This document shows positions 892-52,938 of a stretch of DNA of 64,000 nucleotides, one piece after another. The translations under genes were made by a program, and so were the position numbers. Source of the stretch: Haloarcula laminariae (GTDB lineage: Archaea; Halobacteriota; Halobacteria; Halobacteriales; Haloarculaceae); the NCBI RefSeq assembly GCF_025457605.1, contig NZ_JAMZFY010000001.1:2046001-2110000 (forward strand). The letters are read 5' to 3'. Under the pieces are notes generated by a model. The model made no database searches and was not told the DNA's origin. It saw nothing but the letters and a program-made list of their open reading frames with translations. Numbering within the stretch: the first letter of the stretch is position 1; every line of letters starts with the position of its first letter.

Positions 892-1452
892 TTAAATCAC
901 CTTGGCGCGGTAGTATGTTCCTTCAGATTCGTTCAAGAATCTTAAGCTCTTGTCATCTATCGTCGCAGGATACGAGAACACTATCGGCGTGTTATCCGGC
1001 GTATTCATCTCTAATTGCCCCATCAACGTTGAGGCACTGGCAAACGGATACAGAATTCCCATGCGGTAGATGACAACAGTGTCAGCGTCCTCTGATTGTG
1101 CGGCGATTTCCGAAGCGATCTCACCGAGGTTCCCATCGTCTAACAGTGATGATTTTAACCCGTCTAGCAATCGATCTCGGTCACGGCGTTCGAGATCGAT
1201 GACGTCATCCAAAATTCCTCTTTCCTCCAGTAGCGAAAATACGAGGTCCCGCATATCGATGCCAGCGACGGCTTGGTCGTGGTACTCAAGTTTCTCGATG
1301 AGATTACGGATTTCTTCATCCACCTCAATTTCGTCCGCTGGATCGTAGGTGAACACGATGAACGGGACGCCCGCTCGTCTTCCGACCTCATCTCTGTCAG
1401 TCCGCACAAGACGCTCTACTTCTTCCAGCCGCTCTTGAAAATCAGAAGGCAT
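892..1452 (-). CDS. brxB: BrxB (DUF1788 family) BREX protein
   Basis: BrxB-type protein of 186 residues, normal length for the DUF1788 family. It is a small BREX component of unclear biochemistry that always accompanies BrxA and BrxC. Family-like features are the N-terminal FQERLEEVERLV helix, the FIVFTYDP segment, and the late VVIYRMGILYPFASASTLM stretch followed by PIVFSYPA, the typical DUF1788 core. The start overlaps the end of brxA by 11 bases and the stop nearly touches the brxC start, so brxE-A-B-C form one transcriptional unit. Function is inferred from family and neighbours. Confidence 0.9.
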   Translation of the reverse strand: MPSDFQERLEEVERLVRTDRDEVGRRAGVPFIVFTYDPADEIEVDEEIRNLIEKLEYHDQAVAGIDMRDLVFSLLEERGILDDVIDLERRDRDRLLDGLKSSLLDDGNLGEIASEIAAQSEDADTVVIYRMGILYPFASASTLMGQLEMNTPDNTPIVFSYPATIDDKSLRFLNESEGTYYRAKVI

Positions 1453-2260
1453 CGATCAGTTCCTCCGTGGAATCGTATTTTCTCACGAGCCGCTCCGTCG
1501 AACCGCGCTTGTCGTAGGTAACATACTCGGGAGAGATGTCGCGGATACGCCGTCGAACTTCGGATTCGTTCATCAGGAAGAGCTTCCAGTCATCGTGCTC
1601 GATCACACCCGATGCGGACGTCACTCCCTTCTCGAAGAGTCTGTACACCACGTACGCAATCGCTTCGTCCGGAACATAAGTGACCGCGAACTCCTTCTTC
1701 TGCCGTCCCTCTAATAGATTGAAATTACGGAGGGAGGTCAGATACTTGGTTGCCGCTTCGTTGATAGTGGACTCTGACCGGTCTCGAAGATCCTCGTAGT
1801 CATCTTTGATTGCCTCGATGTACTCGACGATGTCCGTTGCGCGGACCGTCAGTGTGCCCCGTTCAAACTCAGGGTATAGGAACTCGACAGTCACGATTCG
1901 AATGAACGGGTCCTGTGCGAATTCGTAGTAGAGACACCAGTCCGTAACATCGTCACGAAGATTCGTCGTAACGATTTGCATTAACGGCGTTTCGACGTAT
2001 TCGTCGGTGTCAGGGATATATCGACGAGCGACTTCCCGCAGGATATTTGTCCGGTACTCGTCGGTGTTTTTGTTCAGAATGTTCTCTTCGACGACTTGAT
2101 ACTCTAACTCGTCGAATGAGTCGACCTCCGCGTAGGTAGCAAGGATTTGCTTGGTTTCCTCGATATACGTACTGTGATGAGCGATTGCAGGGTCTAATCG
2201 CTGCTCTTGCTTGGTCTCATCTTCCTTTGCTGAATCGACGTGTTCGTTACTCATAGACAT
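1442..2260 (-). CDS. brxA: BrxA (DUF1819 family) BREX protein
   Basis: 272-residue BrxA/DUF1819 protein, somewhat longer than the usual 200 residues because of an acidic haloarchaeal N-terminal extension of about 45 residues. The family core is visible from about residue 60: a segment with TNILREVARRYIP, the CLYYEFAQDPFIRIVTVEF region, then a winged-helix-like middle and a C-terminal RRRIRDISPEYVTYDKRG segment. BrxA proteins are small DNA-binding BREX components. It sits 3 bases after brxE and overlaps brxB by 11 bases. The second methionine (codon 3) is an equally good start. Confidence 0.88.
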   Translation of the reverse strand: MSMSNEHVDSAKEDETKQEQRLDPAIAHHSTYIEETKQILATYAEVDSFDELEYQVVEENILNKNTDEYRTNILREVARRYIPDTDEYVETPLMQIVTTNLRDDVTDWCLYYEFAQDPFIRIVTVEFLYPEFERGTLTVRATDIVEYIEAIKDDYEDLRDRSESTINEAATKYLTSLRNFNLLEGRQKKEFAVTYVPDEAIAYVVYRLFEKGVTSASGVIEHDDWKLFLMNESEVRRRIRDISPEYVTYDKRGSTERLVRKYDSTEELIDAF

Positions 2261-2263
2261 GCC

Positions 2264-2917
2264 TCACGCGTTATCTGATTTAATCCCTGACTCCAGTGGA
2301 TAGTACGGCACGTGCAGCCTACCTGTACAACTCCCGTACCCACGGAGGAACATCGCAAGGAGCCGCCACTTTTCCGCCTCGACCTCATCCACCGTGTACC
2401 CGTCCGTATCCAGCTCCAATGCACCAGAGGCAGCCGTCTCAGGAATTTTATCGTCTGTCGAACCGGAGATATTCGAGGCGTTCTGTTCAATAATCGCATC
2501 GGTCCATCCATCTCCTAATGACTGGATAGATAGATCCTCCAGCTGGTCCAGAGTGATCCCATCAGATGTCTCAATCCCCTCAATAACAGCATCTAGTCGG
2601 GATTCGACTCGCGGACCGAAATCAAATAGCGAAAGTGCATCCTCACCAATCCGGTCAGATTCTACTTTCGCGCCCACTTTCAGAGCGAGATTGAGTCGTG
2701 ATTGCAGTTCTGTTTTCGGCGTTACTTCGGAGAGACGTGCTCGTCCAGTTTCAGACAGTACCCGTGAATCCCACCACTCCAAGTTATTCGTCTCACCCAC
2801 CCGCTCTACGAGGAGCCGCGACGCAAGTAAATCAAGGAAGAACTCATCCGTAACCCCCGCGTCCTGCAGATCTTCCTTGGTATCATTGTAGACCTCTGCG
2901 AGTTCGGTAGATGTCAT
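2264..2917 (-). CDS. brxE: BrxE-like protein, first gene of a type 6-like BREX operon
   Basis: 217-residue acidic protein. Near the N-terminus it has the stretch LLASRLLVERVGE then LEWWDSRVLSETGRARL and LNLALKVGAKV. I recognise this as the BrxE pattern (a leucine-rich helix, ERVGE, WWDS, then a GR..L helix). BrxE has been described only at the head of type 6 BREX loci, ahead of brxA, which is the arrangement here. I place the start at ATG 2917 rather than an in-frame upstream codon at 2998, because the extra 27 residues are not acidic and would overlap the divergent gene. The promoter would lie in the 39 bases between this gene and the divergent metallophosphoesterase. Confidence 0.75.
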   Translation of the reverse strand: MTSTELAEVYNDTKEDLQDAGVTDEFFLDLLASRLLVERVGETNNLEWWDSRVLSETGRARLSEVTPKTELQSRLNLALKVGAKVESDRIGEDALSLFDFGPRVESRLDAVIEGIETSDGITLDQLEDLSIQSLGDGWTDAIIEQNASNISGSTDDKIPETAASGALELDTDGYTVDEVEAEKWRLLAMFLRGYGSCTGRLHVPYYPLESGIKSDNA

Positions 2918-2956
2918 ACTAATCGTCAGGCTTGGGGAGGGTTTAGAACCCACGGC

Positions 2957-4351
2957 TTGCGGTGTATTAGTAAGGTAACGTCTGATGAGATAGCCCATGT
3001 GTTATTGAGGCTGTGCGTTGTCGAGGGTGTGTGGACTGGTTTCTCCGTGGGAAATGAATTAGCTGAATTATACGTGAGTCTCTCGACGGTGTACAAGTCG
3101 GTGCCGTCGAGTGCGGCGTCTGAGTGGCAGTTGGCGTTGCATTCTGTGTTGTACGGTGATGAGCTATTAGCTGACGGTGCAGAGCCGTATGGGAAACAGC
3201 AGAATAATCGTAATCACTGGAACAAAGGTGAGTATGTGCAGTCGAACGGGGATCGAATCACGGAGTTTGCCGCGCTTACTGTGGCCGAACCTCGGGCTGA
3301 GGATAAGGGATTGCTGCCGGCTGGTGCTATGGTGCCGGTTGCGCCGGAGTCCGGAGAGGTGTTGCCGGTGATGGTGTCCGAGGATGGTGTTGATGAGGCG
3401 ATTTCGTTGTTGGCTGAATTCCCGGTTGAACCGGCTGCTGATGAGGCGGGTGTGGGAGCGACTGCGTTACTGGACCCGGGTCGGGTGCAGGCGGCGAGAG
3501 TAGCAACCGGGACGCAGACAGAGACGGTGAGTGCGTCGACGGTGTTGTTCGTGAGTGATACGCACGCGGGGTTTGAGAACCGGGTGGTAACTGGTCGCGG
3601 CGATAGTGTGCCGTGGATGAACGAGCTGTCGAGTACGGAGACGTTCCACCGGATTCGAGAGATTGCGATTGCACAGGATGTGGATGCGGTCGTGCATACG
3701 GGTGACGTATTGGATCACGAGGTTGATCGGGAAACGTTAGATGCGATTGGATTAGATTTGGCGATGCTTGCAGCGAGTGATATTCCCGTGTACGGTATTA
3801 TCGGGTCGCATGATCACGACTCGTATGAACCACGGCATTCGGGCTCTGTTGACGGGATTGCGTGGCTGCAGAAACAGACGAGCAACGGTAATCTAACCGA
3901 GTTATCGGCACAGCCAACTGGAGTCCCTGATTCACCGCTTACTTTGTACGGAATTTCGGCTGGTAACGTCGGTATCGATGCTGTCGGCACGTACCAGTCA
4001 AGGTCTTGGACACCGGCTGATATCTCGTTTACACCGGGGTCACGGGGGTGGAACGTTCTGTGTCTGCACGACGGGTTCGGACCGTACCGTACGGCAAGAG
4101 CAGATGTGGATCTCGACGAGTTACTCGCACAAGCAGCCGTGTCGTTCGACTGTGTCCTCATTGGTGATGAGCACCGACCGGAGAACGGCGATTTCGACAC
4201 CGGATACACGTTCGAATCACGGGATGGCACGCCGGTACTGTACACTGGACCGGCAATGCGAATCAGCGACGCGTACAGCGATCACGCCGCGTTCGTGACT
4301 GAACTTACGATATCTTCGAGTGGTGTTAGTACGGTGCGACACACTGTGTAA
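2957..4351 (+). CDS. Calcineurin-like metallophosphoesterase (Mre11/SbcD-like motifs)
   Basis: 464-residue protein in two parts. Residues 1-190 are an unknown haloarchaeal N-terminal region with a helical start and alanine/proline-rich middle. Residues 195-464 form a metallophosphoesterase: DTH at 201-203, HTGD at 247-250, GSHD at 283-286 (normally GNHD), LHDG at 370-373, and GDEH at 403-406 in place of the usual GHxH. The order resembles SbcD/Mre11 nucleases, but no Rad50/SbcC partner is beside it. The first in-frame codon is TTG 2957; GTG 2999 is an alternative. It is divergent from brxE and could be an accessory gene of that locus or an independent defence nuclease. Confidence 0.75.
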   Translation: MRCISKVTSDEIAHVLLRLCVVEGVWTGFSVGNELAELYVSLSTVYKSVPSSAASEWQLALHSVLYGDELLADGAEPYGKQQNNRNHWNKGEYVQSNGDRITEFAALTVAEPRAEDKGLLPAGAMVPVAPESGEVLPVMVSEDGVDEAISLLAEFPVEPAADEAGVGATALLDPGRVQAARVATGTQTETVSASTVLFVSDTHAGFENRVVTGRGDSVPWMNELSSTETFHRIREIAIAQDVDAVVHTGDVLDHEVDRETLDAIGLDLAMLAASDIPVYGIIGSHDHDSYEPRHSGSVDGIAWLQKQTSNGNLTELSAQPTGVPDSPLTLYGISAGNVGIDAVGTYQSRSWTPADISFTPGSRGWNVLCLHDGFGPYRTARADVDLDELLAQAAVSFDCVLIGDEHRPENGDFDTGYTFESRDGTPVLYTGPAMRISDAYSDHAAFVTELTISSSGVSTVRHTV

Positions 4352-8897: not shown

Positions 8898-9767
8898 TCA
8901 GTATTTGACGTTGGTGATGCCGACGGAGTGTGTTGAGTCCGAAAAAACACGAGATAACGATTCGCTGAGTACCTGTGTGATTTCGTCGGTGTCGGGCATG
9001 TGACCGTGTTCTCTTCCGATATACATGTAGCCGCCGTGTTTTGTGCCTGCGTCGATGACTTCGAGGTCGTTGTTGTGTGCAATCGCCTCGATGTGTTTCC
9101 AGTCGTCTTTCCCAAAGCTAGCAATCGTATTACTTGCGTTGACAAAGCCGTGCATATTATACACACCGGACGGATGCTGCGGGTGGATTGAATACCCTGC
9201 TTGGGAGCCATTTACGAATACTCTTGATTGCACGTGTCCGGATTCCGCTTGTGACAACTCAATACACTCACGCAGTGTTTCCACCACATCGCCCTTAGTG
9301 TCCTTCGCAGCGTGAGTCTGGTCGAATTCGTCAGTCTGCCCCTCAGTGGCATATTTACTCACCAAGCCAGCTGCATCTACGTGTTTTATGACGGCTACGA
9401 GCCGATTTCCATCGATCGTTTTCACATTAAGATTGCTGGCGGTTTCTTGTGCTTGCTTAGTGAACTGGCTGGTAGTTACCACAACGACCGTGTCGACGTC
9501 GTCTCGTTGGTGTTTGAGACTGCTGTATTGCTGTATGTCCGGACCCCCGACTTTGGTGCCTGAAGAGTATCGTTTTGCTTGTATCAGTTGCTTCTGATAG
9601 AACGGCATGTCTTTTTCAGCGATAATGTCGACGCCACCATCGTTCGACCCCGATGTAACCGTCGTGTCCCATCCTTGCTTCTCCCACAGCTCAGCAATAA
9701 ATGACTCAAATGCATACTCATCGATATCCTGCAAATGGCTGAGAAGCTCCGCATCGGTCACATCCAT
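8898..9767 (-). CDS. Mrr-type restriction endonuclease (PD-(D/E)XK, QxK variant)
   Basis: 289 residues from ATG 9767; longer upstream starts at 9818 and 9914 add a non-acidic tail and are less likely. Residues 1-125 are an Mrr_cat fold: helix YAFESFIAELWEKQGW, catalytic GGVDIIA with D47, and LIQAKRY with Q63 and K65, then a VVVVTTSQFTKQA helix typical of the family. Such enzymes cut modified DNA as type IV restriction nucleases. The C-terminal 150 residues are an unknown alpha/beta domain. It is divergent from another Mrr gene starting at 10038; the two nuclease domains are clearly similar (both contain QKQLIQAKRY), suggesting an old duplication. Confidence 0.88.
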   Translation of the reverse strand: MDVTDAELLSHLQDIDEYAFESFIAELWEKQGWDTTVTSGSNDGGVDIIAEKDMPFYQKQLIQAKRYSSGTKVGGPDIQQYSSLKHQRDDVDTVVVVTTSQFTKQAQETASNLNVKTIDGNRLVAVIKHVDAAGLVSKYATEGQTDEFDQTHAAKDTKGDVVETLRECIELSQAESGHVQSRVFVNGSQAGYSIHPQHPSGVYNMHGFVNASNTIASFGKDDWKHIEAIAHNNDLEVIDAGTKHGGYMYIGREHGHMPDTDEITQVLSESLSRVFSDSTHSVGITNVKY

Positions 9768-10037
9768 ACTATGCAGTAGTAGCGATTGGTCTGCGAGCGT
9801 AAAACAACTACTGCTCATACTGCCGGCTGGAAATACGCTAAAGTATTTCCTACCCTTACCTACTATCCTGTTTTGAACCTGTATCGTAGTTTGGTCTATG
9901 TTCCGGTGAGGCAATCGACTCGACTACCGAGTAGTGAAGATGCGCGACCGGACGTCCTTGTTGTATACAGTACTGTTGGCTAACAGGTAGCTATCACGGG
10001 GATAGTCATTTTTATCCTCAATGCATACGGCCCTGAT

Positions 10038-11534
10038 ATGTCGGAACTGGACAACGAAGAGTTCAAAGAATTTCTTTATAATCTTACTCCAGAAGAATTT
10101 GAGAATTTTGTTGCGCAGGTTTGGTCTGAGCGGGGGTGGACTGCGAATGTTACGCAAATGTCTGGCGATAGTGGGATTGATATTGTCGCTACAAAAGAAT
10201 CCCCGTTTCAACAGAAACAGCTTATTCAAGCAAAACGATATGGTCCTGATACTGCCGTAAGTAGTCCCGATATTCAACAGTACGCGAGTCTGCGCCAACA
10301 GGAGAATAACGTTGACTCAGTTGTTGTCGTGACAAGTAGTAGGTTCTCCAAGCAAGCAGTACAACTTGCAGAGAAACTAAATGTAAAATTGGTTAGTGGC
10401 GAGGAACTGTATGAGTTATTTAAAACTGATGAGTTCTTTCACATCTTGAGTGATTACTCTCAGGACACTCACCACGGGGAGACGAAGGATATGCAGACGT
10501 CTGATGCACAGGCAGCGAATGGCCAGGGAGAGGAAGTGGGTTCTACGGTTTCCAGACAACCGTTTGGATCTTCTATAACGGTGAAATGGAAGGCTGAAAC
10601 GGGAGAAGGGTTTGCCAAAATGGTCTACCAGGATGATTCAATCTATCTCGGGGGTAGTGACAATCATTTGTTTGCTATAGAATGTGGTGCAGGAGTGACG
10701 CAGTGGAGTGTTGAGTTGCCACATTCGATTCAGTGTATAGCAACAAGCGGAGAAGATGTGTATGTTGGCTGTAAAGATTATCAGGTTTATTCGGTAGATA
10801 GAGCCACTGGCGAGGGTAATTGGTCGTTTCGCAGTGATGGATATCTCAGCGCGATAGATGTAGCAAACGGCATTGTTTGCTGTAGGGCTGAGACACACGA
10901 CTATTCAGAATTGTATGCGATAGATGCGGAGACCGGTGAAAAGCTATGGAGTTTTGAGGATGGTGCAGGGACTCACTTTGGTCACATCACTATCGACGGA
11001 GGGTCTGTCTATTATTCGTCGCTGCATACATTATTTTCAATAGATCTGAGTTCAGGTGAGGTGCAGTGGGAATTTGGACCCAAAGACCGTTCTACGAAAC
11101 CAGCAGTGCACGGCGACTCTATCTACGTTTGTAGTGATGCAAACAATCAGCTCTATGCAATCGATGCGGACAGTGGAGCTGAACAATGGTCATATGACGC
11201 ACCGGGAGAGATTCATTCCTCACCAAGAGTACTAGATGGAACCGTCTATATTGGAAGCGGTGAATCTCGTTTGTACGCGGTTGATTCAAATAATGGGAGC
11301 GAGCGGTGGTCTTTCTCAGCCAAGGGTCCAGTAACACTACCACCAGTGGTAACAGGCACGACTCTCAACTGCGCGTCAGCTTTGGGATATATTTACGCTG
11401 TCAATCCGAATGAGGGAACGCTAATTGAAGAGAATGAATTTGACGGTGATATATATGCGATGACTGCTGACGATACTACGGTATATGTGCTAGGAGAGTC
11501 AGGGGATCTGACTGCTCTGGAGTCCCCTGATTAA
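10038..11534 (+). CDS. Mrr-type endonuclease fused to an eight-blade PQQ-like beta-propeller
   Basis: 498 residues. Residues 1-135 are an Mrr_cat nuclease with helix FENFVAQVWSERGW, catalytic GIDIVA (D48), QLIQAKRY (Q64, K66) and VVVVTSSRFSKQA. A linker of about 45 residues, rich in Gln/Ser/Asp, follows. Residues 185-498 are tandem blades with the pattern hY.G....hYAhD..tG...WSF; I count eight (for example YIGSGESRLYAVDSNNGSERWSF is one blade), as in BamB and PQQ dehydrogenase propellers. No signal peptide is visible, so it should be cytosolic, unlike most PQQ-propeller proteins. The propeller is probably a binding or sensing module controlling the nuclease; that is inference. The start ATG is preceded by a short AT-rich divergent promoter region. 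Confidence 0.9.
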   Translation: MSELDNEEFKEFLYNLTPEEFENFVAQVWSERGWTANVTQMSGDSGIDIVATKESPFQQKQLIQAKRYGPDTAVSSPDIQQYASLRQQENNVDSVVVVTSSRFSKQAVQLAEKLNVKLVSGEELYELFKTDEFFHILSDYSQDTHHGETKDMQTSDAQAANGQGEEVGSTVSRQPFGSSITVKWKAETGEGFAKMVYQDDSIYLGGSDNHLFAIECGAGVTQWSVELPHSIQCIATSGEDVYVGCKDYQVYSVDRATGEGNWSFRSDGYLSAIDVANGIVCCRAETHDYSELYAIDAETGEKLWSFEDGAGTHFGHITIDGGSVYYSSLHTLFSIDLSSGEVQWEFGPKDRSTKPAVHGDSIYVCSDANNQLYAIDADSGAEQWSYDAPGEIHSSPRVLDGTVYIGSGESRLYAVDSNNGSERWSFSAKGPVTLPPVVTGTTLNCASALGYIYAVNPNEGTLIEENEFDGDIYAMTADDTTVYVLGESGDLTALESPD

Positions 11535-11542
11535 AACCCGTC

Positions 11543-12042
11543 TACATTGAGCACGCGGCGAATACACGTGTCGGTGGTTTCAACGGGATAGCAGTACTCC
11601 AGAAGTTAGAACGGTGCCTGCCGAGTATCACGGATCTCACCCGGGGGACAGAGGCGTGGGCGACAGACAAGGTTTCGCTGGCAGTTATGCTGCTGGCACA
11701 CACTGACGGGAAGTTGTCGTACTGTGTCCAAGCGTCGCGCTAACAACCTAGTCGACTACGGGCACCGCAAGTTGACGCGTGGGACGATGCACCTCCTATC
11801 GGCTACGAAACGGAGGGCCCGGTGGCGACACGACGGTTTGAGTTGCCTGCGGCCGCGAACTCCACATATGGTACGGTGCAACACGCCACAAAACACCGTT
11901 GTTTGACGACACCGGCCGAGTCCGCGAAACGGTGTTCTTTGACGAGCTAAACTGGCAATCACACGTGGAGTGTGGCCAATCACAACTCATCACGTATCGG
12001 CAACTCTACGACCTCGCTGAAAAGCCAGAAGAACAGTTCTAA
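11543..12042 (+). pseudogene. Decayed haloarchaeal gene (in-frame stop plus one-base deletion)
   Basis: A reading frame with haloarchaeal residue composition runs from about 11543 (no start codon) through an in-frame TAA at 11741-11743 to about 11890. It then continues sensibly only in the next frame, through VRETVFFDELNWQSHVE to a stop at 12040-12042. The switch falls in an A-run in acaaaacacc at about 11888-11893, where one lost A would restore a read-through HATKTPLFDD. One nonsense mutation, one frameshift and a missing 5' end show a dead gene. The parent family is not recognised. It sits between the Mrr-propeller gene and the HNH gene and fills what would otherwise be a 600-base gap. Confidence 0.6.
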
Positions 12043-12140
12043 CTTCGGTCTCTGTACCGGCGATGTGTTGTCGCTGCGGACACAGTGTATGCTGACCAGC
12101 GGGACTCTTCACAGGAAGTCATCATGCTGTGCGGCGACGG

Positions 12141-12875
12141 TCAGCCGAAGTTACCGTCGTCTGTTAGCTCGGTTTCCACCCACTCGGCGAAGCTCGCCGG
12201 CGTCGCTGGTTCGTAGGCAAGTTGGCCACTGCCAGGTGCGGTGCCTGGTCGTGACCCGTGGACGGCTGCATGGCAGGATTGACACAGTGTGACGAGATTC
12301 TCACTAGTATTGGGCCCACCCCTTGCTGCTGGCCGAATATGATGCAAGTGGAGGGTCTCGGTAGCACTACACCGGACACACTGGTGATTGTCACGCTCTA
12401 ACACGGTCGTTCGCGTTTGTGTCGATATGTCTCCTCGCCACTTTCGTTGCGCAGCTTGTCTGTCAACGACTGTCCCACCATTGGACGTGTAGTATTTGAA
12501 GTCCTTCACGTAGCCGACGGAGGTGTCGAGAGCGTCAGCAAGCGCACCTGTATGTACCTTCAGGCCGAACGCCTGCTTGACCGCGATGATACGGTCCTTT
12601 TTTGTTATCGTCGCAGGGGAGTCAAATTCGGTTTGCAGATACGTTTCGTAGACTGCAGCTAGTTCAGTTCGGCATTCCTGAATTTGGGCCTCTAACTGTT
12701 CGCCTTCGGCTGTTGCTTCAAACTCGCGGTGGGCGGCCAACCACGCATCGATATCACCGGTATCGTAGTCGTGGTGGTCCGCATAGGCGTCGAAAGCTGC
12801 GTCTTTCTCCCGCCGAAGTCGTATCCGACGGTCACGAATCTCGTCGTGACGCTCTGCAAATTCAGACGGTATCAT
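12141..12875 (-). CDS. HNH endonuclease
   Basis: 244 residues from ATG 12875 (an upstream ATG at 12911 adds only a Ser/Thr-rich tail). Residues 1-90 are charged and probably coiled coil. Residues about 95-140 contain a helix-turn-helix-like segment (ADALDTSVGYVKDFKYY). The HNH domain occupies about residues 155-210: CVRC, then LHLHHIRP with the catalytic His, an Asn in SENLVTLC, and CQSCHAAVHG, giving two CxxC zinc knuckles and the H-N-H triad. HNH proteins of this kind are DNA-cutting enzymes in restriction systems and mobile elements. It follows the lipoprotein gene on the same strand and looks like a free-standing accessory gene. Confidence 0.85.
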   Translation of the reverse strand: MIPSEFAERHDEIRDRRIRLRREKDAAFDAYADHHDYDTGDIDAWLAAHREFEATAEGEQLEAQIQECRTELAAVYETYLQTEFDSPATITKKDRIIAVKQAFGLKVHTGALADALDTSVGYVKDFKYYTSNGGTVVDRQAAQRKWRGDISTQTRTTVLERDNHQCVRCSATETLHLHHIRPAARGGPNTSENLVTLCQSCHAAVHGSRPGTAPGSGQLAYEPATPASFAEWVETELTDDGNFG

Positions 12876-14120: not shown

Positions 14121-15791
14121 ATGCGTCAGGGTGACCCGAGATGGACGGCTCGTGTGGATGAGGAGGAGGGTGCCCAAGATCCGTTGGGGATGACTCGTGT
14201 GACGGATCGCTTGTTACGTGACTTGCTGCCTGGTATCACGACTATTTCTCCGCGACCGCGGTATATTGCGCATCACTTGTGGGCGCTTGCTGACGTCGCT
14301 GAGCGTGAAGAGCCGGCATCACGGCCGCAGTTGATGCAGGGGATGTATCAACGGGAGCGGGTCCTGTTGTTGGCCGGGACGTGGCATGCACGATCTGATG
14401 CGAACACCAGTCATACGAATCTCGTTGGGGCTCGAACAGCGCATAAGTTAGTTGGGTCGGATGAGGGCAGTATCGGCTTGGAGTTCTCGTTTTCGTCGAA
14501 TCGGAGTGGAAGTTACGGTCGGAACTACGTGGGGCCGCTACAGACGATGGGGCTTGTTGATACGCCGGATGGGGCGGAGTTCGAGGCCCCGACTGAGCGA
14601 GGGGCCGTGATTGCTGTTGCGTACGGAACAGTAGCCTCGGAGACGGACCTTGCGGGGCTGGCGACTGGTGACAGGATTACGTTTGACCAGCTTGATTCGG
14701 TCACGCCCCAACTTTGTCCGTGTAACGTCAGCGAGGTTGATGCGCCTGACCGGGAGCCGCTCCGAGACCTGTATTTGGGTCGTGATCCGCCGGAGGCGTT
14801 CGCGGCGCAGGCACGAACGCGGCGGGAGACGCTCGGATTGATTCTGCACCTCGCACGGTTGGGCGGTGACACTGTACCGTTGGAATCAGAGCGGCTGTTG
14901 AATATTTGTTATTACGGGGCGGTTCGGATAGAAGATGAAGTAGTTGATGCGGACGTGCCAGCCGGGTTCAGTGATACTGCGGCGCGGTGGAAGGTGTTCC
15001 GTGCACACGATTATTTCGCGTTTGCTGTTGAGGCGCTGCTGACCAGTTGGTTGGCGTATCTCAAGCGGACTGAGGAAGCAGATGCGTCGCTCACTGAATT
15101 TAAACAACAAGCGCGCTCAGACGCGGTCTGTGATCGGATTGCGGAGCAAATCGGTATGTCGACACTCACTCCGGACACACCGCTGTCAGCAGTCCTGGCT
15201 GCCATGTGGCCGGATTCAACACTGTCCGGACTCCAGGAGGAGACCACGGTCGCTGCGGTCCCGATGACACACGCGGCGAGTGAAGATACACTTGATTCGG
15301 CGTTGCAAGCGGCGTTGTCGGAGTCGGATTGGATAGGTGTGTACGCCGCATGGCCGTGTCTGCTCCTCGCGTTGTCGCTTCGAATGGCGTCGCAAACCGA
15401 CTCGGAAGCTGCGGCGTGGGGGTGGCTTCGTTCGCGGACACAAAGCGATTTGAGTCCGGTTCGGTTGCGGGAGCATCTACTCATGCACTTGGAGGCTGAG
15501 CGGTCCTTCGAGGGGTTCATTGACTGGTTCATTGATGAGTACATCATTACGCGAGGGACGGAGATTGCAGCGGGCAAAGGCGATGGTGTGACAGCGTCAC
15601 GCGGTTACTTCGAGCAGACAGCCACAGGGTGGCGGCATGTCCGTGATCATACACCGTGGCATTGGCAGGCCAGGTTTGACAGTGCCGTTACCGTGCTTCG
15701 TGACCTCGCCTTGCTGGATCCGGATACGTCGACGACGACTGTCACGCCTGATGGCATCGCGTTGCTTGACGCCGAACAGGAGGCATCGTAA
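14121..15791 (+). CDS. DUF6361-like protein, first gene of a nuclease cassette
   Basis: 556 residues. Near the N-terminus (about residues 30-60) is a motif LLPGITTISPRPRYIAHHLW. This resembles the LFPGxSTIQTRARYFLFVPW signature I associate with DUF6361-type proteins, which are found beside PLD nucleases and helicases in defence loci; the match is from memory. The middle has a CPCN pair, and the rest is mainly helical. No catalytic motif is visible. Its TAA stop overlaps the ATG of the PLD nuclease gene by one base (TAATG), so the two are translationally coupled and probably act together. It may be the sensor or structural partner of that nuclease. Confidence 0.6.
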   Translation: MRQGDPRWTARVDEEEGAQDPLGMTRVTDRLLRDLLPGITTISPRPRYIAHHLWALADVAEREEPASRPQLMQGMYQRERVLLLAGTWHARSDANTSHTNLVGARTAHKLVGSDEGSIGLEFSFSSNRSGSYGRNYVGPLQTMGLVDTPDGAEFEAPTERGAVIAVAYGTVASETDLAGLATGDRITFDQLDSVTPQLCPCNVSEVDAPDREPLRDLYLGRDPPEAFAAQARTRRETLGLILHLARLGGDTVPLESERLLNICYYGAVRIEDEVVDADVPAGFSDTAARWKVFRAHDYFAFAVEALLTSWLAYLKRTEEADASLTEFKQQARSDAVCDRIAEQIGMSTLTPDTPLSAVLAAMWPDSTLSGLQEETTVAAVPMTHAASEDTLDSALQAALSESDWIGVYAAWPCLLLALSLRMASQTDSEAAAWGWLRSRTQSDLSPVRLREHLLMHLEAERSFEGFIDWFIDEYIITRGTEIAAGKGDGVTASRGYFEQTATGWRHVRDHTPWHWQARFDSAVTVLRDLALLDPDTSTTTVTPDGIALLDAEQEAS

Positions 15792-17917
15792 TGCCGGTTG
15801 AGCAACTCGCGTTGCTTGAGGAACTCAGCGAGAGTGACCGGTACTCAAGTGCGATACTCGGCACGTACCAGTTCGACGGTGAATTCTTCGAGGATGAGGT
15901 CCTGCCGATACTCGATCAATTAGACATCGCTAATATCGTGGTGCTCACGGACACACAAGCATACACGGACGCGACTGAACTCACGCAGGCTGGTCAAGCC
16001 TATTATATTGATCACGTCCGGTGTCCCGGGATTCACCATCCGAAGTTCGTGGCGTTACTCGGACACGATCACGGTCGTGCGTTCGTTGGGAGCGGGAATC
16101 TCACCGAGCGAGGCTGGTCACGGAACGGGGAACTCATGACTGTCGTTGATTACCCGGGTGAGACAGGTGAGACGGAAGCAGTGTTCGCGCAACTCCGAGA
16201 GTTCATCGAACGGTCAGCGGCACAAATTCACGGGTCACGCGCTCGTACGGCTATCAAGGAAGCGTTCCGTGATGCACCGTGGCTCCCCGAATCATCAGGC
16301 GCGGGTGGGACTGGTGATTTTGAGTTATTGCACAACTATGAGGACCCACTCCTCCAACAGGTGCGTAGTCACGTCGGTGACCAGTCTATCGAGTCAATCG
16401 AGGTTTGCTCCCCGTTTTTCAGCGGCACCGATGACGCAGCTCTCGCCGCGCTCTGTGATCTTGCTCCGGAAGAACTGGTGATCAATCTGCAGCCAGACAT
16501 GGTCGAAGGGTTCGACGCTGCGGTACTCGACGCGGAGTGCTTCGATGGGATCGACGTAACAGTGAACAAAGTAGCGCTGACTGGCGATGATTCCGACCGG
16601 TACCTCCACGCCAAATTACTCCTGCTGAAAGGCCCGGCGGGCGCGTGGGCGTTCTACGGGAGTGCGAACCTCACAACACCAGCATTACTGGAGACTGAAG
16701 CGAACGGGAATATCGAGCTCGGTGTACTTCGCTACGAGTCAGACCCCGCGTATTTTGACTACTTGCTCGATTCTGACACTGTCACTCGTGAGGCAATCAG
16801 CCCGGGTTCAGTCACGTTCCGTCGCTCCAGTCAGACTGACACGAGTGATGATCCCGCCGATTTCTACCTCACCGACGCGTACTTGGAAAGCGATGGGGCT
16901 CTTGTCATTGAGCATGATGAGGCGACGCCGCCGTGGGCGACAGTTCATCTCAATCCGAGTTCGAGTGACGAGGAGCTCAATGTGGACCTTACGGAGCCAG
17001 CTGACGGCTCACTCAAGTGCAACGATAAACGCGTCCTGCAGGCGTGCCGTCAGTCAGCACAAGTCCAAGTCACGCTGCAGTTCACTGACGAGACCCTGAC
17101 CTCTGATGCACGGTGGGTCGCGGCACCGACACTTGAGCAAACACCACGGCCGAGTGAGGTACAGACCGTGGAAACTTCCGATGGCCGTGACGGCCTCCTT
17201 GAAGTGCTTGACCGACTCCCGACGTGGGGACTGATTTGCAAATTCCTCGACGGCGTCAATTTCAACGACATGACTGTTGCGGGTGGCGGCGCCCGTATCA
17301 GGAGTAAAACCGCCGGTGATACCGAGGGTAATGATGAACTGGATGAGTGGCACCCGGAAGACCGGGATGAGATACTAGAAAAGAAGGTAAACACGCTACT
17401 GAACCGAATTGAAACAACGCGTCAAGACCTAATACTGCACGAGACAGATCCTGAACTGTTCGAATCGTTTGTCAACCAGTACATCGCCCTCTCGAAACTC
17501 GTCCTGTGGTGGGACAGTCAAGAGCCTGAAGAGCCGACCCATCTCGGCAAAGTACGAACTGCGACTGAAACAATCGGCGAGTTCATCAGGAGCCTCACAG
17601 GACGTACCGACGAAAAACGTGGAGAGGCACTCGAAACAGAGCACTCGCTTTTCGAACACACAGCAATCATCATGTGTTATGTGAACGAGTTACAGAAACA
17701 CGCTGGCTACGACTCAGGGGCGAACGAACAGGTCTACGCTGCCTTCCAGAACACGAACCGAGACGTACTAACCGCGTTCGGGAACCTTCGAGGGCAGTCA
17801 GCGCCGTCAGTTGAACGTCTCGAAGACTGTCTTGATGAGTACAGTGCAATTGATGCCGTGTCAGTGAGTGCGAGGCGAGTCGAATACTACTGCAAAAATC
17901 TAGTCAACGCTGAATGA
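15791..17917 (+). CDS. Phospholipase-D-family nuclease with two HxK motifs
   Basis: 708 residues. Two PLD half-sites are present. The first is HHPKF with H83/K85 followed by GSGNLTERGW (N103). The second is LHAKLLLL with H273/K275 followed by YGSANLTTPALLE. Two such half-sites form one active site in PLD-type nucleases. The C-terminal 350 residues are unknown: beta-rich to about 440, then long charged helices. No helicase motif occurs. It is coupled to the upstream DUF6361-like gene by a TAATG overlap and followed after 79 bases by a PD-(D/E)XK nuclease, so this cassette pairs two unrelated nuclease folds. It is probably a cytosolic DNA nuclease rather than a lipase, as no signal peptide or membrane segment is seen. 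Confidence 0.8.
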   Translation: MPVEQLALLEELSESDRYSSAILGTYQFDGEFFEDEVLPILDQLDIANIVVLTDTQAYTDATELTQAGQAYYIDHVRCPGIHHPKFVALLGHDHGRAFVGSGNLTERGWSRNGELMTVVDYPGETGETEAVFAQLREFIERSAAQIHGSRARTAIKEAFRDAPWLPESSGAGGTGDFELLHNYEDPLLQQVRSHVGDQSIESIEVCSPFFSGTDDAALAALCDLAPEELVINLQPDMVEGFDAAVLDAECFDGIDVTVNKVALTGDDSDRYLHAKLLLLKGPAGAWAFYGSANLTTPALLETEANGNIELGVLRYESDPAYFDYLLDSDTVTREAISPGSVTFRRSSQTDTSDDPADFYLTDAYLESDGALVIEHDEATPPWATVHLNPSSSDEELNVDLTEPADGSLKCNDKRVLQACRQSAQVQVTLQFTDETLTSDARWVAAPTLEQTPRPSEVQTVETSDGRDGLLEVLDRLPTWGLICKFLDGVNFNDMTVAGGGARIRSKTAGDTEGNDELDEWHPEDRDEILEKKVNTLLNRIETTRQDLILHETDPELFESFVNQYIALSKLVLWWDSQEPEEPTHLGKVRTATETIGEFIRSLTGRTDEKRGEALETEHSLFEHTAIIMCYVNELQKHAGYDSGANEQVYAAFQNTNRDVLTAFGNLRGQSAPSVERLEDCLDEYSAIDAVSVSARRVEYYCKNLVNAE

Positions 17918-19525: not shown

Positions 19526-19768
19526 CAGGCGGATTTGCAAGCGAAAAACTAGTTTTGGGATGCAGTGTGGAAATGGTGGGCACTCCGACAGCCAGAAGAG
19601 CAGCTACAAAAACGGTGCAGGAACCGCCCAATTGACTGGCGACTGTTTCTGTCGTCTAGCTACCGACGGATCCAGGCACATGATTATCTATCGAGTACGA
19701 ATTCGTTCAAAGAATCTCGCTATTAGAAGATAGTTTTATCAGCGATTATAAAGGTGTATAGTCGTACG

Positions 19769-22444
19769 ATGGTTGATTCGTCAAGTGAGGAGTTAGTTTC
19801 AGCGTATCTTGCTAATCGGGAGTGGGAGGAGAAGCGACGGGCAGTGGAGAAGACGGCCGGGATTGTGCAGGATTTTGCGGCGGCGTTGCTTGAGGCGGGT
19901 GAGCTTGGGCAACAGGAAATGACGGCGTTGTACCGCGTGTGTATGAACGATGATACGTACCCGGTATCGAGTAAGCGCGGGGAGATTGACGAGGTAGATA
20001 TTCCAGCGGATGCGAAACGGGATTTGAAACAGCGGCTTGCTGAGGATGTCGGGACTGTTGGGGGATTGACCTTCCCGATCGAAGTACCCGATGAAGACAA
20101 GGGTGCAGTGACGTCGTGTTTTGAAACGCTTGTCACGGCGGAGGACCCGGACGCGTGGGATGATGCGGTTCGGGAATTAGCTGCGCTTGAACTGCCGAAG
20201 GTCAAATGCGGAAAGCTGTCGCCGATTCTGTCGTATCTGCATCCAGAGTATTACCCGGTCGTGAACACGTTGTCACGGACCGGGCTTGAGGAGTACTTCG
20301 ATGTGAGCGTGTCCAATGAACTCGCTGATTTCCCGGAAACTGCCGCCACATACCGGTCGATTCGAGATGACTACGGACTGGAAGCGAACTTCCGTGACTT
20401 GGATTACTTTTTCGTATGGGCGAACACCCGAGACCCACCAGGGCCTACGCTACCCGGCGAACGGTCGTATTTTTGGGTGAATCAATCGAATCAATCTGAG
20501 ATTGAGGATGAGTATCTACGGGCGAAGGTGGACGATGTGTGGCATCACAACCTGTCGGAGCTTGATAACGATGACGTGGTGTTCCATAATTTCAACGATG
20601 AGTTAGTTGGCCTCTCGACGGTGACAGGGACGCCAACTCAGTATGAGTTCAGGGGTGAGGAGTATCATCGTGTCCCCGTTGAATTCAATTGGTTTGATGA
20701 GTCCGTTCGGGTTGATACGGAACTAAAACAATCCTTGGACACACCGGAGTGGCATCAAAAGTACTACCCGATTGATTCGAACGGGAATTTGAAGCAGGCG
20801 TACCTATCGCAATTATCCTTAGCGGCTGCAGAATTCCTGTTAGATACCGGGAAAGCATGGCAACTACTCCAAGATCCTGGACCAGATGGCCCGGGTGAAG
20901 AGATTCCGGATCCGCCTGCCCAAACTGATGAGATTGAACGGCAATTGCTGGAAAAGAAGCAAGTCGTGTTCTACGGGCCGCCAGGGACAGGGAAGACGTA
21001 CACTGCTGAGCGGTTCGCCAAGTGGTGGGTTGGCCAGCAGGACGGCGGTGACCCGGTGTCTGACCGAGTTGCGACGGTAACGTTCCACCCGTCGTTCACG
21101 TACGAGGATTTTATTGAAGGATTGAGCGCGCAGACGGACGACAATGGGCAAGTAGCGTATGATGTGCAAGACGGGGCACTGAAGCGAATGCAGGCGGCGG
21201 CGAAGTCGGCATACGAGCGCGCGAAGGAAGCCGGCACAGAACCGGACCGGTACGTGCTGATTATCGACGAGATTAATCGCGGGAACCTCGCGCAGATCTT
21301 CGGTGAAGTCATCACACTGTTGGAGGCCGATAAGCGCGGATCGTTCGATGTCGAGTTGGCACACTCTGGAGACCCGTTCACGTTGCCACCGAATCTGTAC
21401 GTGATTGGGACGATGAATACGGCGGATCAGTCGATTGCACTGGTGGATACGGCGCTTCGCCGCCGGTTCCGGTTCATGGACTTCCCGCCGGATCTTGATG
21501 TTGTGTGGGAAGAGAGCGAGATGGTCGCCACAGATGCGTATACGACAGTTACGCAGGCAAATAGTGACGTGTCGCGTCGGGAGCAGTTGCTTGGCGCGAG
21601 CGTTGAGGCGGTCCGGGAATTGAATGAACGGATTTTGTCTGCACCAGAGCTCGGGAAGGGCAAGCAACTCGGGCACACGTACCTGCTCGGTCATGACTCA
21701 CCGACGGATGTCGTTGACGCGTGGCGGTACGATATCCTCCCGCAACTGGAAGAATATTATTTCGGGCAGTTTGATCGGCTTCGAGACGATTTACTGACTG
21801 AGACCGGGGAGCAACTGATTCAGTGGGACGCCGAGCAGATTCAGGCGTTCGACGCTACAGATCTGTACACAGCACTCTGCTCACTGGCAGGGATCGAAGA
21901 CCCGGTGCCGCTCGCTGCAGCACCTGTCGAAGCAATGGCTGACGGGACGGGTGTGTCGCAGACTGTAGATGCGTGGGAGGAGGGTGAAAAAACGGTTGCT
22001 TCGTTTCGTGAACGCATCGCAACGACGTTAGATGAAACAGCGAAGTCTCGCGTGGAACGGTTACTCGAAGCTGGTGAAGATGTCGGGTGGCTTGATACCG
22101 GTCGTGGAGAGCATAATGCGACGGTGCAATTGAAAGCTGATCACATCGATCCAAGTGTCGCTCTCATTCAACTCGATCAGGACGGGACAGTAAAATTCAA
22201 ACTGAATTGGCTTGCCGCCCGCGATGAGAACGAATTGACAGGCGAATTCATCGACGACGCTGCGGGCGTGTTCGAAGAGATTGAAGCGTACTCGCACGAG
22301 TGGCGGCCCGATTCCGATGACGGTGAGAAGGAGATCCGAGCGCCGAACATCCAGATTGCCGACCTCTCCGAAGCGGAAATGGATATCTTAGTAGAAGGGT
22401 TCCGCTCGTTTGCACAGCAAGCCGATGAGTTCCAGGATGGCTGA
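19769..22444 (+). CDS. mcrB: McrB-type AAA+ GTPase/ATPase of a McrBC type IV restriction system
   Basis: About 891 residues from ATG 19769 (a GTG at 19754 is in frame). Residues 215-330 have an EVE/PUA-like reader region (YFWVNQSNQSEIEDEYLRAK), the sort of domain that binds modified bases. The motor domain follows: Walker A FYGPPGTGKTYTAERF, Walker B with VLIIDEINRGNLAQIFGEV, sensor 1 GTMNTADQSIALVDTALRRRF. The DEINRGN and MNTADRS-type motifs are diagnostic of McrB. McrB translocates on DNA and recruits McrC. It overlaps mcrC by 8 bases. A TATA-like stretch (ttttatcagcgattataaa) lies just upstream. Confidence 0.92.
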   Translation: MVDSSSEELVSAYLANREWEEKRRAVEKTAGIVQDFAAALLEAGELGQQEMTALYRVCMNDDTYPVSSKRGEIDEVDIPADAKRDLKQRLAEDVGTVGGLTFPIEVPDEDKGAVTSCFETLVTAEDPDAWDDAVRELAALELPKVKCGKLSPILSYLHPEYYPVVNTLSRTGLEEYFDVSVSNELADFPETAATYRSIRDDYGLEANFRDLDYFFVWANTRDPPGPTLPGERSYFWVNQSNQSEIEDEYLRAKVDDVWHHNLSELDNDDVVFHNFNDELVGLSTVTGTPTQYEFRGEEYHRVPVEFNWFDESVRVDTELKQSLDTPEWHQKYYPIDSNGNLKQAYLSQLSLAAAEFLLDTGKAWQLLQDPGPDGPGEEIPDPPAQTDEIERQLLEKKQVVFYGPPGTGKTYTAERFAKWWVGQQDGGDPVSDRVATVTFHPSFTYEDFIEGLSAQTDDNGQVAYDVQDGALKRMQAAAKSAYERAKEAGTEPDRYVLIIDEINRGNLAQIFGEVITLLEADKRGSFDVELAHSGDPFTLPPNLYVIGTMNTADQSIALVDTALRRRFRFMDFPPDLDVVWEESEMVATDAYTTVTQANSDVSRREQLLGASVEAVRELNERILSAPELGKGKQLGHTYLLGHDSPTDVVDAWRYDILPQLEEYYFGQFDRLRDDLLTETGEQLIQWDAEQIQAFDATDLYTALCSLAGIEDPVPLAAAPVEAMADGTGVSQTVDAWEEGEKTVASFRERIATTLDETAKSRVERLLEAGEDVGWLDTGRGEHNATVQLKADHIDPSVALIQLDQDGTVKFKLNWLAARDENELTGEFIDDAAGVFEEIEAYSHEWRPDSDDGEKEIRAPNIQIADLSEAEMDILVEGFRSFAQQADEFQDG

Positions 22445-23726
22445 CCTCTCACAAATCAGTCTCGTCGGCTCACCTGTTCGTGAGAGTGCCAGGGATGAAA
22501 CTGTCCCGCCGTCAAACCCGTTGGTACTGGCAGAACACGACGAGTCAGACCCGTTCGAGATTAGCTCGGATGACGCGGCGTTCCTCGACCGGTTGGGCGA
22601 GGTTCACGAGTCCGCACCGCTTGATGTATCGTATACGAATGAGGGGCAGGCGATCATCAGTAGTAGCTCGTACGTCGGTGTCCTGACGTTGCCAAGCGGC
22701 CTGCAAATCGAGGTGACGCCGAAGCAGTCAGTAACGCGGTTACTGTGGGCGCTGCAGTACGCATTCGATACGCCGATCGATTCGATGGGGAAAGAAACGA
22801 AGTTCACCGGTGCCTCCTCGTTTTTCGATGCGATCGGCGTGTTGTTCCTGACGGAACTCAAGACTGTCCTTGACCAGGGCTTGCATCGGGATTACGTGCG
22901 AACGCAGGCCGTCCAAGATAATGTTCGCGGCCGGATTGACGTACAACGACAGTTACAGAGACCGGAGCCGACGCCGACTGATTTCGCCGTCGAGTACGAC
23001 GAGTTCACCACTGATACAGTGTTGAATCGTGCTGTGCTTGCGGCCGTGCGCGTACTGACCGGGTTAGTTCGTGATAATGAATTAGCCGGGCGGCTCCGAC
23101 ATGAAGAGCAACGGCTCCGGCAGTTCACGACGGTCAAACCAGTGTCTGTTGACGCCGTCGAACGCATCGAGTTGTCACGGTTGAACGAGCATTACGAACT
23201 CCTGTTAGACTTAACACGAACGGTTCTAGCCCGGGAGTTCTTCGAGGATATTAGCGCCGGGAGGAACCGGTCGCTCGCGCTGTTCGTGAACATGAACGAT
23301 ATCTTCGAGCGACTCGTTGAGCAGGCGTTCCGAGCGGCTGCGAAAGAAATCGGCGGACTTACCGTAGAGGGCCAAGCATCGATTCAGAATATCGTCGACG
23401 GACCACACGCCGTGTCCATGCGGCCGGACGTTCTAGTCAGACATGACGACGGGACACCGGCGACTGTTATCGACGCGAAGTGGAAAACCGGGTCACCGTC
23501 GTCAGGTGACGTATACCAACTCACATCGTACATTCTCGCGCTGGATACATGTGGCGCGCTCGTGTATCCAGGGCACAGTGACCATGGCGGGGAAAAATCG
23601 ACAGTGATGAACGAGTACTCGCTTCGCTCTGTCGAGTTAGCCACGGATGCAGCAGCCCCGTCCTATCAAGATTATGTCGAGGTGTTGGAACTGAGCGCGC
23701 GGAACTACTTGACCGATATTCTCTAA
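22437..23726 (+). CDS. mcrC: McrC-type nuclease subunit of the McrBC system
   Basis: 429 residues from ATG 22437, which overlaps the mcrB stop; an upstream in-frame ATG at 22410 is less likely. The N-terminal half is the McrC beta-rich part that contacts McrB (IISSSSYVGVLTLPSGLQIE, VTPKQS). The middle is helical. The C-terminal third has the PD-(D/E)XK nuclease core: MRPDVLVRHDDG with Asp, then VIDAKWK and QLTSYILAL. The length and motif order match McrC. With McrB it should cut DNA carrying modified bases. The gene ends 3 bases before the convergent ADP-ribosylglycohydrolase gene. Confidence 0.92.
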   Translation: MADLSQISLVGSPVRESARDETVPPSNPLVLAEHDESDPFEISSDDAAFLDRLGEVHESAPLDVSYTNEGQAIISSSSYVGVLTLPSGLQIEVTPKQSVTRLLWALQYAFDTPIDSMGKETKFTGASSFFDAIGVLFLTELKTVLDQGLHRDYVRTQAVQDNVRGRIDVQRQLQRPEPTPTDFAVEYDEFTTDTVLNRAVLAAVRVLTGLVRDNELAGRLRHEEQRLRQFTTVKPVSVDAVERIELSRLNEHYELLLDLTRTVLAREFFEDISAGRNRSLALFVNMNDIFERLVEQAFRAAAKEIGGLTVEGQASIQNIVDGPHAVSMRPDVLVRHDDGTPATVIDAKWKTGSPSSGDVYQLTSYILALDTCGALVYPGHSDHGGEKSTVMNEYSLRSVELATDAAAPSYQDYVEVLELSARNYLTDIL

Positions 23727-25868: not shown

Positions 25869-26903
25869 ATGCCCGAGCGATCAGACATACAGTCGTATCT
25901 TGATACGATTGACCCATATGAATTCGAAGAGTTGATTGCTGAGATATGGGAGCAAAAATTCGGGTACACTTCAAAAGTAACACCAAGTTCCCAAGATCGC
26001 GGCATCGATATTGTTGCGGAAAAAAGTAAGCCGGTGGCGCAGAAGATCTTGATCCAAGCCAAATTATATCAAGAGGAGAATAAAGTCGGCAGCCGAGAAA
26101 TTCGGGACTATGCAACGCTCTACCAACAAGATGAAAGTGCCGACCGAGTGGTACTTGTTTGTACTGGTGGCTTCACGAGCCAAGCAAAGGAATTAGCTCA
26201 GGATTTGCAGGTAGACATTTTTGACAGAGAAGAAGTTGTGAATTGGCTTGTTGATGACAACGTCGGTTCGGAGATAATTCAAACAGATGATGGATCACAC
26301 GCCCATAGCCACTCCTCTAACTCTTCGCCATCCGAAAACTCTGCCAATGACGATAACTCAATTCGGTTGATTGAGGCCGCAAACGAATGGTTATCCTCAG
26401 ACTTTATTGAAAAAACGACGACGCTTAAGCCTAGAAGTGGAATTATAGAAGGAACGATCACTGGTGATGCGCTATACAATTCTTTGCTCTTTCATATTCG
26501 CATTATAAATTGCGAGTATGGAAAGAACGAGCACGACACCTCTGAGTCCATACACTTCCCGCTTGAAGATAACGGTGATGCATGGTCCGTAACTGAGGGT
26601 ATCTCCTATCTTGAAGGTATGTATCAGATAGTAACTCAGGACCGTGCCGTTATTGACAGAATGGATGAAATGAGCGACAGTTCTGAGCACGTTACGAAAA
26701 TTCACGAGGAAAGTGTAGAGAACTATCTGATTGGTACGTATGGCCATGAAGATGTGCCTACTAAGATCAAGATTGAACAGGAATTTAGAACGGTAATACG
26801 GATCATTCAAGATATTTTTGAATATTCTTTAGACGATATAGCTAAAATCGAGATAGAATCAGAAACACCCATTAAGAAAGCATCAAGAATGGTATTTGAC
26901 TGA
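25869..26903 (+). CDS. Mrr-type restriction endonuclease with unknown C-terminal domain
   Basis: 344 residues. Residues 1-130 are an Mrr_cat nuclease: YEFEELIAEIWEQKFGY, catalytic GIDIVAEK (D47), LIQAKLY (Q63, K65), and VVLVCTGGFTSQAKELA. A Ser/His/Asn-rich linker (about residues 140-165) leads to an unknown 170-residue domain, mostly helical, with a beta start (LKPRSGIIEGTIT). The catalytic part resembles those of the genes at 8898 and 10038 (same QxK variant), but the C-terminal domain differs, so the family appears to exchange its sensor parts. Confidence 0.85.
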   Translation: MPERSDIQSYLDTIDPYEFEELIAEIWEQKFGYTSKVTPSSQDRGIDIVAEKSKPVAQKILIQAKLYQEENKVGSREIRDYATLYQQDESADRVVLVCTGGFTSQAKELAQDLQVDIFDREEVVNWLVDDNVGSEIIQTDDGSHAHSHSSNSSPSENSANDDNSIRLIEAANEWLSSDFIEKTTTLKPRSGIIEGTITGDALYNSLLFHIRIINCEYGKNEHDTSESIHFPLEDNGDAWSVTEGISYLEGMYQIVTQDRAVIDRMDEMSDSSEHVTKIHEESVENYLIGTYGHEDVPTKIKIEQEFRTVIRIIQDIFEYSLDDIAKIEIESETPIKKASRMVFD

Positions 26904-27266: not shown

Positions 27267-27440
27267 GCCTTCCAGTACGAACCTTGGTGTGTTGGATGTT
27301 TGTATCCGAGTGATATTTCATACGTCTGAAACAGTGTTCCATCGGCCGTTAGTCAGTGCAATTAGCGCTGATGGATTCGCTAACGGAGCTTGTCCGCCGA
27401 ACAAATTTGTAGCTGCAACTATATTCCATCTACTAACCGT

Positions 27441-52284: not shown

Positions 52285-52938
52285 GTGCAAGTAGGCTGCT
52301 ACGTACGGGTTTCGACAACGGGCCAAAATCTCGACCGACAACTATCTTCTACGGCTGACTACGCACAAGACGAACTCGGAGCGGGCTTGCAGGATATCGA
52401 GACCTATCGTGACAAGAGTACCGGTACGAACACTGATCGTAGCGGCTACCAGGACTTAATGGACGATGTCGAGGCCAATGGCTTGGATGCTGTCGTAGTT
52501 CATGACATCACGCGGCTCGCTCGCTCATTGCAAGATCTCGACCGAACCGTTGAGCGGGTCACCTCTCATAATACCGAGATCCATTTCGTTCGGGATAATC
52601 TCCCACCGTTCATGGGCGAAGATGATCCGATGGCCCGGTTGATGCTCCAGATGCTCGGCGCGTTTGCTGAGTGGGAGGCCCGAGTGAAGCAAATGAACAC
52701 ACGCGAGGGGATCGCTGCCCGCCAGGAAAATGAAGACTACCACCACGGTCCTGCGCCACTCGGCTTCTCGAAAGATGATGGCCGTCTCGTTGAGAATGAA
52801 GATTATCACGATGTTGTTGCGGCCCTGGACATGGTTCAAAAAGAGGAACTCTCGAAACGCAAGGCTGCTGAACGACTGGACTGTGCGCGCTCAACGATTG
52901 GTCGCGCTCTCGAACGGACTGAACTCTACGGTCTCTGA
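52285..52938 (+). CDS. Serine recombinase/resolvase
   Basis: 217 residues from GTG 52285. The N-terminal resolvase domain has the catalytic serine in GCYVRVSTTGQNLDRQ (S10), then the ITRLARSLQDLDRTV region and LMLQMLGAFAEWEA; residues about 185-217 contain a helix-turn-helix (RKAAERLDCARSTIGRALE). The size is that of a small resolvase/invertase, not a large serine integrase. It suits plasmid dimer resolution or DNA inversion, and marks mobile DNA within the island. Confidence 0.9.
   Translation: MQVGCYVRVSTTGQNLDRQLSSTADYAQDELGAGLQDIETYRDKSTGTNTDRSGYQDLMDDVEANGLDAVVVHDITRLARSLQDLDRTVERVTSHNTEIHFVRDNLPPFMGEDDPMARLMLQMLGAFAEWEARVKQMNTREGIAARQENEDYHHGPAPLGFSKDDGRLVENEDYHDVVAALDMVQKEELSKRKAAERLDCARSTIGRALERTELYGL

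Follow-up and report, generated by a model that had tools for sequence, protein, structure and literature searches.

In the E. coli type IV restriction enzyme Mrr, a winged-helix domain at the N terminus precedes a nuclease domain at the C terminus, the latter a PD-(D/E)XK domain of the Mrr_cat type. Similar PD-(D/E)XK domains are joined to a separate sensor, which controls or targets the cutting, in the modification-dependent nucleases MspJI and AspBHI and in the cyclic-oligoadenylate-activated Cdn1/Can2. The sensor of these proteins is an SRA-like or a CARF domain. An E. coli protein in which an N-terminal Mrr-family nuclease is followed by a seven-bladed propeller was validated as an anti-phage protein by Vassallo et al. 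(2022), and propellers can, according to the same work, bind protein or DNA (PMC9519451). Propellers of the PQQ type are also carried by kinases of Streptomyces and Deinococcus (PMC1262709), and the D. radiodurans kinase RqkA is stimulated by PQQ and by DNA ends (PMC11007091).

The window analysed here is a stretch of 64,000 nucleotides from the haloarchaeon Haloarcula laminariae. It contains a gene (10038..11534, + strand) that encodes, in a single chain of 498 residues, an Mrr nuclease, a flexible linker and an eight-bladed propeller of the PQQ/BamB type. The product, hereafter the Mrr-propeller protein, is probably a soluble defence nuclease that stands alone, with the propeller as its recognition and gating module.

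The Mrr-propeller gene

The open reading frame starts with ATG and runs through 498 codons with no internal stop. The Mrr_cat nuclease domain occupies residues 1-141 (10038..10460), the linker of ~40 residues about residues 142-180 (10461..10577) and the propeller residues 181-498 (10578..11531), all on the + strand. A TATA-like box lies on the same strand at 10009..10017, 29 nt 5' of the ATG. The position of the box is consistent with a leaderless haloarchaeal gene and with a putative leaderless-type promoter.

Both halves of the protein are acidic, the propeller half strongly so (pI 4.2; D/E 16% vs K/R 5%). Neither a signal peptide nor a Tat motif nor a membrane helix was found in the 498 residues, the hydropathy of which peaks at 1.2 over 19 residues. 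This bears out the lack of a signal peptide claimed in the earlier note, and the protein is predicted from its sequence to be cytosolic.

The same note had proposed that nuclease and propeller belong to one chain and had named a frame-joined artefact of assembly as what would undo the claim. The first point holds, since both parts lie in a single frame and the Mrr_cat and PQQ_2 families are matched above their curated cut-offs. The artefact is unlikely given the single frame, the length of the contig that carries the gene (2.25 Mb) and the nearly equal GC3 of the Mrr and propeller halves (0.38 and 0.41, respectively, vs about 0.90 in the host genes near the right-hand edge of the window). The equally low GC3 also makes a recent joining from sources of different composition unlikely. 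The Mrr-propeller gene is thus confirmed as a genuine, well-formed fusion.

The Mrr nuclease domain

The Mrr_cat family (PF04471) is matched over residues 14-127 with an E-value of 5.6e-26 (91.4 bits vs a cut-off of 21). The residues D48 (10179-10181), Q64 (10227-10229) and K66 (10233-10235) follow the catalytic D ... (E/Q)xK pattern, the last two as Q64-A-K66, and a further catalytic residue, E22 (10101-10103), is placed in helix 2 of the model. These four residues are invariant across 28 close Mrr relatives. In a wider set of 38 relatives, F21, E22 and D48 never vary, whereas Q64 and K66 are conserved in at least 90%, so that D48, Q64 and K66 are confirmed, by Pfam and by conservation, as the Mrr_cat core that had been noted before.

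Modelled alone, the domain reaches a pLDDT of 93.5 and adopts a restriction-endonuclease-like fold. Its best Foldseek matches are MspJI (E 1e-7), AspBHI and Cdn1/Can2, from which the Mrr-propeller protein differs in having a propeller in the place of the SRA-like or CARF sensor, and the Mrr half is also matched by the type IV methyl-directed models of PADLOC. The Mrr_cat domain is shared with the E. coli enzyme Mrr, in which, however, the nuclease is C-terminal. In the Mrr-propeller protein it is N-terminal, and no winged helix of the E. coli type was found in front of it by Pfam, there being no space for one before the start of the match at residue 14.

The propeller domain

Two propeller families are matched over residues 198-467 above their curated Pfam cut-offs, namely PQQ_2 (PF13360; E 1.1e-37, 130 bits vs a cut-off of 27.6) and Beta-prop_ACSF4 (E 2.2e-40). 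The AlphaFold2 input consisted of 38 rows, all of them Mrr relatives, which left the propeller to be modelled from its sequence alone. The full-length model has a mean pLDDT of 84.8, and each of the two domains is modelled with confidence. The stretch of residues 145-190 is disordered (pLDDT <50), so how the domains sit relative to each other is uncertain (pTM 0.65). The propeller comprises 31 strands of at least three residues arranged in eight blades, where the short N-terminal strand 181-182 probably closes blade 8 in the model. The top Foldseek matches are designed eight-bladed propellers (Cake8) and BamB, and in VIA-align eight-bladed propellers from several families reach Z values of about 34-38. 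These matches are evidence of fold and not of function. They agree with the model on the count of about eight blades, which had been suggested from the sequence with a structure prediction as the check.

The propeller is neither that of a recognised PQQ-dependent dehydrogenase (TIGR03075, 67 bits vs a cut-off of 480) nor that of a BamB equivalog (TIGR03300, 120 bits vs a cut-off of 285), and it has no lipoprotein signal. No ligand site is recognisable in it, and Pfam gave no known modified-base reader domain in the protein. Seven cysteines (216, 233, 245, 281, 282, 365 and 445; 10683-11372 in the window) are present, of which 281 and 282 form a vicinal pair; the related propellers examined have few cysteines or none. 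A redox or metal role of these cysteines is possible.

The nearest relatives of the propeller are ~30-36% identical and are of two kinds: exported proteins (Tat, lipoprotein or membrane) and, with no export signal, Ser/Thr kinases of haloarchaea. The propeller of one of these kinases (L071) is 32% identical to that of the Mrr-propeller protein. The kinases with PQQ-type propellers (the haloarchaeal L040 and L071, AfsK and RqkA) resemble the Mrr-propeller protein in coupling an enzyme to a possibly regulatory propeller, whereas their effector is a kinase instead of a nuclease. A cytosolic PQQ-type propeller, which the earlier note had called unexpected, is therefore by itself not surprising, and that judgement was overstated in view of the haloarchaeal, Streptomyces and Deinococcus kinases.

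Haloarchaeal Mrr proteins and the search for full-length relatives

Searches for full-length relatives of the protein were negative in 32 genomes of the genus, 146 of the family, 391 sampled from the class and 295 from the phylum, where the class and phylum searches scored few candidates per genome and could miss rare relatives. Bacteria were covered by pattern scans and by plasmid and phage records only. In the plasmid and phage records, no tblastn match extended over 80% of the protein, and those listed were essentially to the propeller only. The genome contigs yielded no relative of the Mrr-propeller protein in a single-protein scan, and an alignment-based scan of them returned Mrr-only or propeller-only relatives and nothing else. 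The viral contigs contained no whole-protein relative, and the propeller as query matched nothing in them. In the absence of a whole-protein orthologue, conservation can neither test the function nor show selection on the fusion. Literature searches likewise found no published Mrr-PQQ fusion, the one comparable case being the seven-bladed E. coli protein.

The partners of the Mrr domain were surveyed in a census of 83 haloarchaeal Mrr proteins. They include PH, zinc ribbon, HHH, HEAT, pentapeptide and DnaJ domains, and for many of the proteins one to three membrane helices are predicted. The core of the haloarchaeal family with N-terminal Mrr_cat is about 40-58% identical to that of the Mrr-propeller protein, has the same catalytic residues and is mostly N-terminal too. 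The C-terminal partners, on the other hand, vary, and unlike the Mrr-propeller protein none of the members examined has a C-terminal PQQ propeller; the census by local HMMs found no other among the Mrr ORFs. The Mrr domain of haloarchaea is a module whose partners can be exchanged.

Further Mrr genes occur in the genome of H. laminariae outside the window. In one of them (C1:2026883-2027221, L001) a TAG stop interrupts the frame, and the gene is probably a decaying copy. Another, on contig C5 (L005:979-1923), encodes a protein with a zinc ribbon and a putative FHA-like C-terminal region, recognised by eye and without Pfam support. Among the haloarchaeal Mrr proteins beyond the census, one (L184:1376-3043) is fused to an MCM-type ATPase with the archaeal MCM winged helix.

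Propeller and nuclease in the opposite order

A family of four proteins (1,008-1,046 aa) in other haloarchaeal genomes (G169, from the same genus, G229, G370 and G375) also combines a PQQ_2 propeller with Mrr_cat in one chain. The loci are L162:5502-8528, L169:2126-5191, L170:4701-7775 and L171:5625-8765. The order is the reverse of that in the Mrr-propeller protein: a twin-arginine leader with an invariant RR motif is followed by the propeller, a helical region, Mrr_cat and DnaJ, and three of the four proteins have a cysteine-rich, zinc-ribbon-like segment. One candidate, L122, had been considered as a second Mrr-propeller fusion and was rejected because its architecture is different, with the propeller in front. 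A comparison of domain order in homologues, proposed earlier as a check, thus returned no haloarchaeal relative of the whole protein and four haloarchaea with the opposite order. Given the reverse order, PQQ propeller and Mrr have been joined independently at least twice in haloarchaea.

In this family a weakly hydrophobic segment near residue 455 is followed by basic residues. The segment could cross the membrane, with the propeller outside and the nuclease inside, but its hydropathy is too low for certainty. A wider proposal, tentative and rather unlikely, is that haloarchaea have repeatedly coupled Mrr and PQQ-type propellers as ligand-gated defence nucleases in two forms, one cytosolic (the Mrr-propeller protein) and one a cross-membrane receptor-nuclease with a Tat leader, whose propeller would be outside while nuclease and DnaJ would lie within the cell. 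No description of a cross-membrane receptor-nuclease of this kind was found in literature searches, and the scan of the viral contigs with this family gave nothing. The gene at L170 is flanked by a pair of similar genes (991-3681 and 9750-12425), the first of which matches DUF1156 and DNA methylase profiles.

Genomic context

The Mrr-propeller gene is divergent from a second gene for an Mrr_cat protein (8898..9767, - strand, start codon at 9767; Pfam Mrr_cat 1.2e-26), the gap between the two being 270 bp. The Mrr half of this neighbour is 45% identical to that of the Mrr-propeller protein and its C-terminal region is unrelated. With two further Mrr_cat genes (25869-26903 and 27390-28799), the window has three besides the Mrr-propeller gene and four in total. 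It also contains the BREX genes BrxB (892-1452) and BrxA (1442-2260), ZacA/ZacB-like genes (14121-17917), a pair of McrB-like AAA and McrC genes (19754-23726) 8 kb from the Mrr-propeller gene, a serine recombinase (52285-52938), and helicase, HNH and PLD genes and a UvrD + PD-(D/E)XK pair. From the BREX genes to the serine recombinase the G+C content is mostly 45-61%, and at ~57 kb it jumps from ~53% to about 68%, with host genes beyond. The region from 1 to 57000 is a low-GC, defence-rich island, which was probably acquired.

Proposed function and alternatives

In the favoured reading, the Mrr-type PD-(D/E)XK domain would be the DNA-cutting effector, and the propeller, held on its flexible linker, would recognise a ligand and gate the nuclease. 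The ligand would most likely be a protein or small molecule that appears on infection, modified DNA being less likely. Once it is bound, two or more nuclease domains would be brought together, or freed onto DNA, and the invading DNA, or all cellular DNA, would be cut.

We infer this activity, antiviral role, gating and oligomerisation from several lines of evidence. The domains, the intact catalytic residues and the model point to a nuclease, the Mrr half of which folds like the sensor-attached effectors MspJI, AspBHI and Cdn1/Can2. The gene lies in a low-GC island with BREX, McrBC, Zac-like, PLD, helicase and Mrr genes and a serine recombinase. The Mrr core carries many different partners in haloarchaea, four of which hold independent fusions with PQQ propellers. 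Moreover, the E. coli protein with Mrr and propeller is a validated anti-phage protein (PMC9519451), and RqkA shows a PQQ-type propeller on a DNA-damage-signalling enzyme (PMC11007091). Against the defence reading, it should be considered that defence islands hold passengers too.

It is unlikely, though slightly less so than the remaining alternatives, that the protein acts in type IV-like, modification-dependent restriction, with the propeller reading modified DNA and positioning the Mrr domain as the recognition domains of MspJI and AspBHI do. The best folds for the Mrr half and its PADLOC matches agree with such a role, as do the proximity of the modification-dependent McrBC and the capacity of propellers to bind DNA (PMC9519451). 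On the other hand, the propeller half is strongly acidic, though halophile proteins generally are, and no known modified-base reader was detected by Pfam. The solved structures that best match the propeller are BamB and designed propellers, none of which is, to our knowledge, a DNA binder.

A second alternative, quite unlikely, is a repair nuclease responsive to DNA damage or redox state, in which the propeller senses a quinone or a damage signal and the nuclease takes part in host DNA processing. It draws on RqkA, the kinase activity of which is raised by PQQ and DNA ends (PMC11007091), and on the seven propeller cysteines with their vicinal pair. Some haloarchaeal Mrr relatives, moreover, have HHH or MCM domains of the repair or replication type, which makes a role in repair possible. 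The Mrr-propeller protein is, however, found in a single genome and in a low-GC island instead of the conserved core, and its own genome gave no pqqC match, though the control genomes gave none either.

BamB-type propellers act in an assembly complex. The BamB-type folds that best match the propeller could thus also suit a mere scaffold, which holds the nuclease in an oligomer or complex while the specificity comes from either the Mrr domain or a partner protein, and the TM, HEAT and other partners found with Mrr domains may serve as tethers only. This is decidedly unlikely, as the gene is on its own, pointing away from another Mrr gene and without an evident operon partner. A recent non-functional fusion or an assembly artefact, which the missing full-length relatives would suit, is very improbable in view of the 498-codon open frame, the intact catalytic residues, the low GC3 of both halves, the promoter-like box, the large contig and the parallel nuclease-propeller fusions elsewhere.

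Significance

The defence-nuclease reading places the Mrr-propeller protein beside the E. coli anti-phage protein, to which it appears identical in design with one blade more (eight in the model vs seven), the two being likened by their described architecture. What has already been validated is the E. coli protein; what the present analysis adds is the eight-bladed PQQ-type module in archaea and its relatives with Tat leader, propeller, Mrr and DnaJ. A defence design of nuclease plus propeller, of which a single E. coli protein is the known case, would in this way reach into archaea, where the propeller is eight-bladed and of the PQQ type. Haloarchaea would employ the Mrr nuclease as an effector that can be combined with many exchangeable partners. 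Should the propeller gate the nuclease, the protein would offer a tractable two-part system for learning what propeller sensors recognise in viruses.
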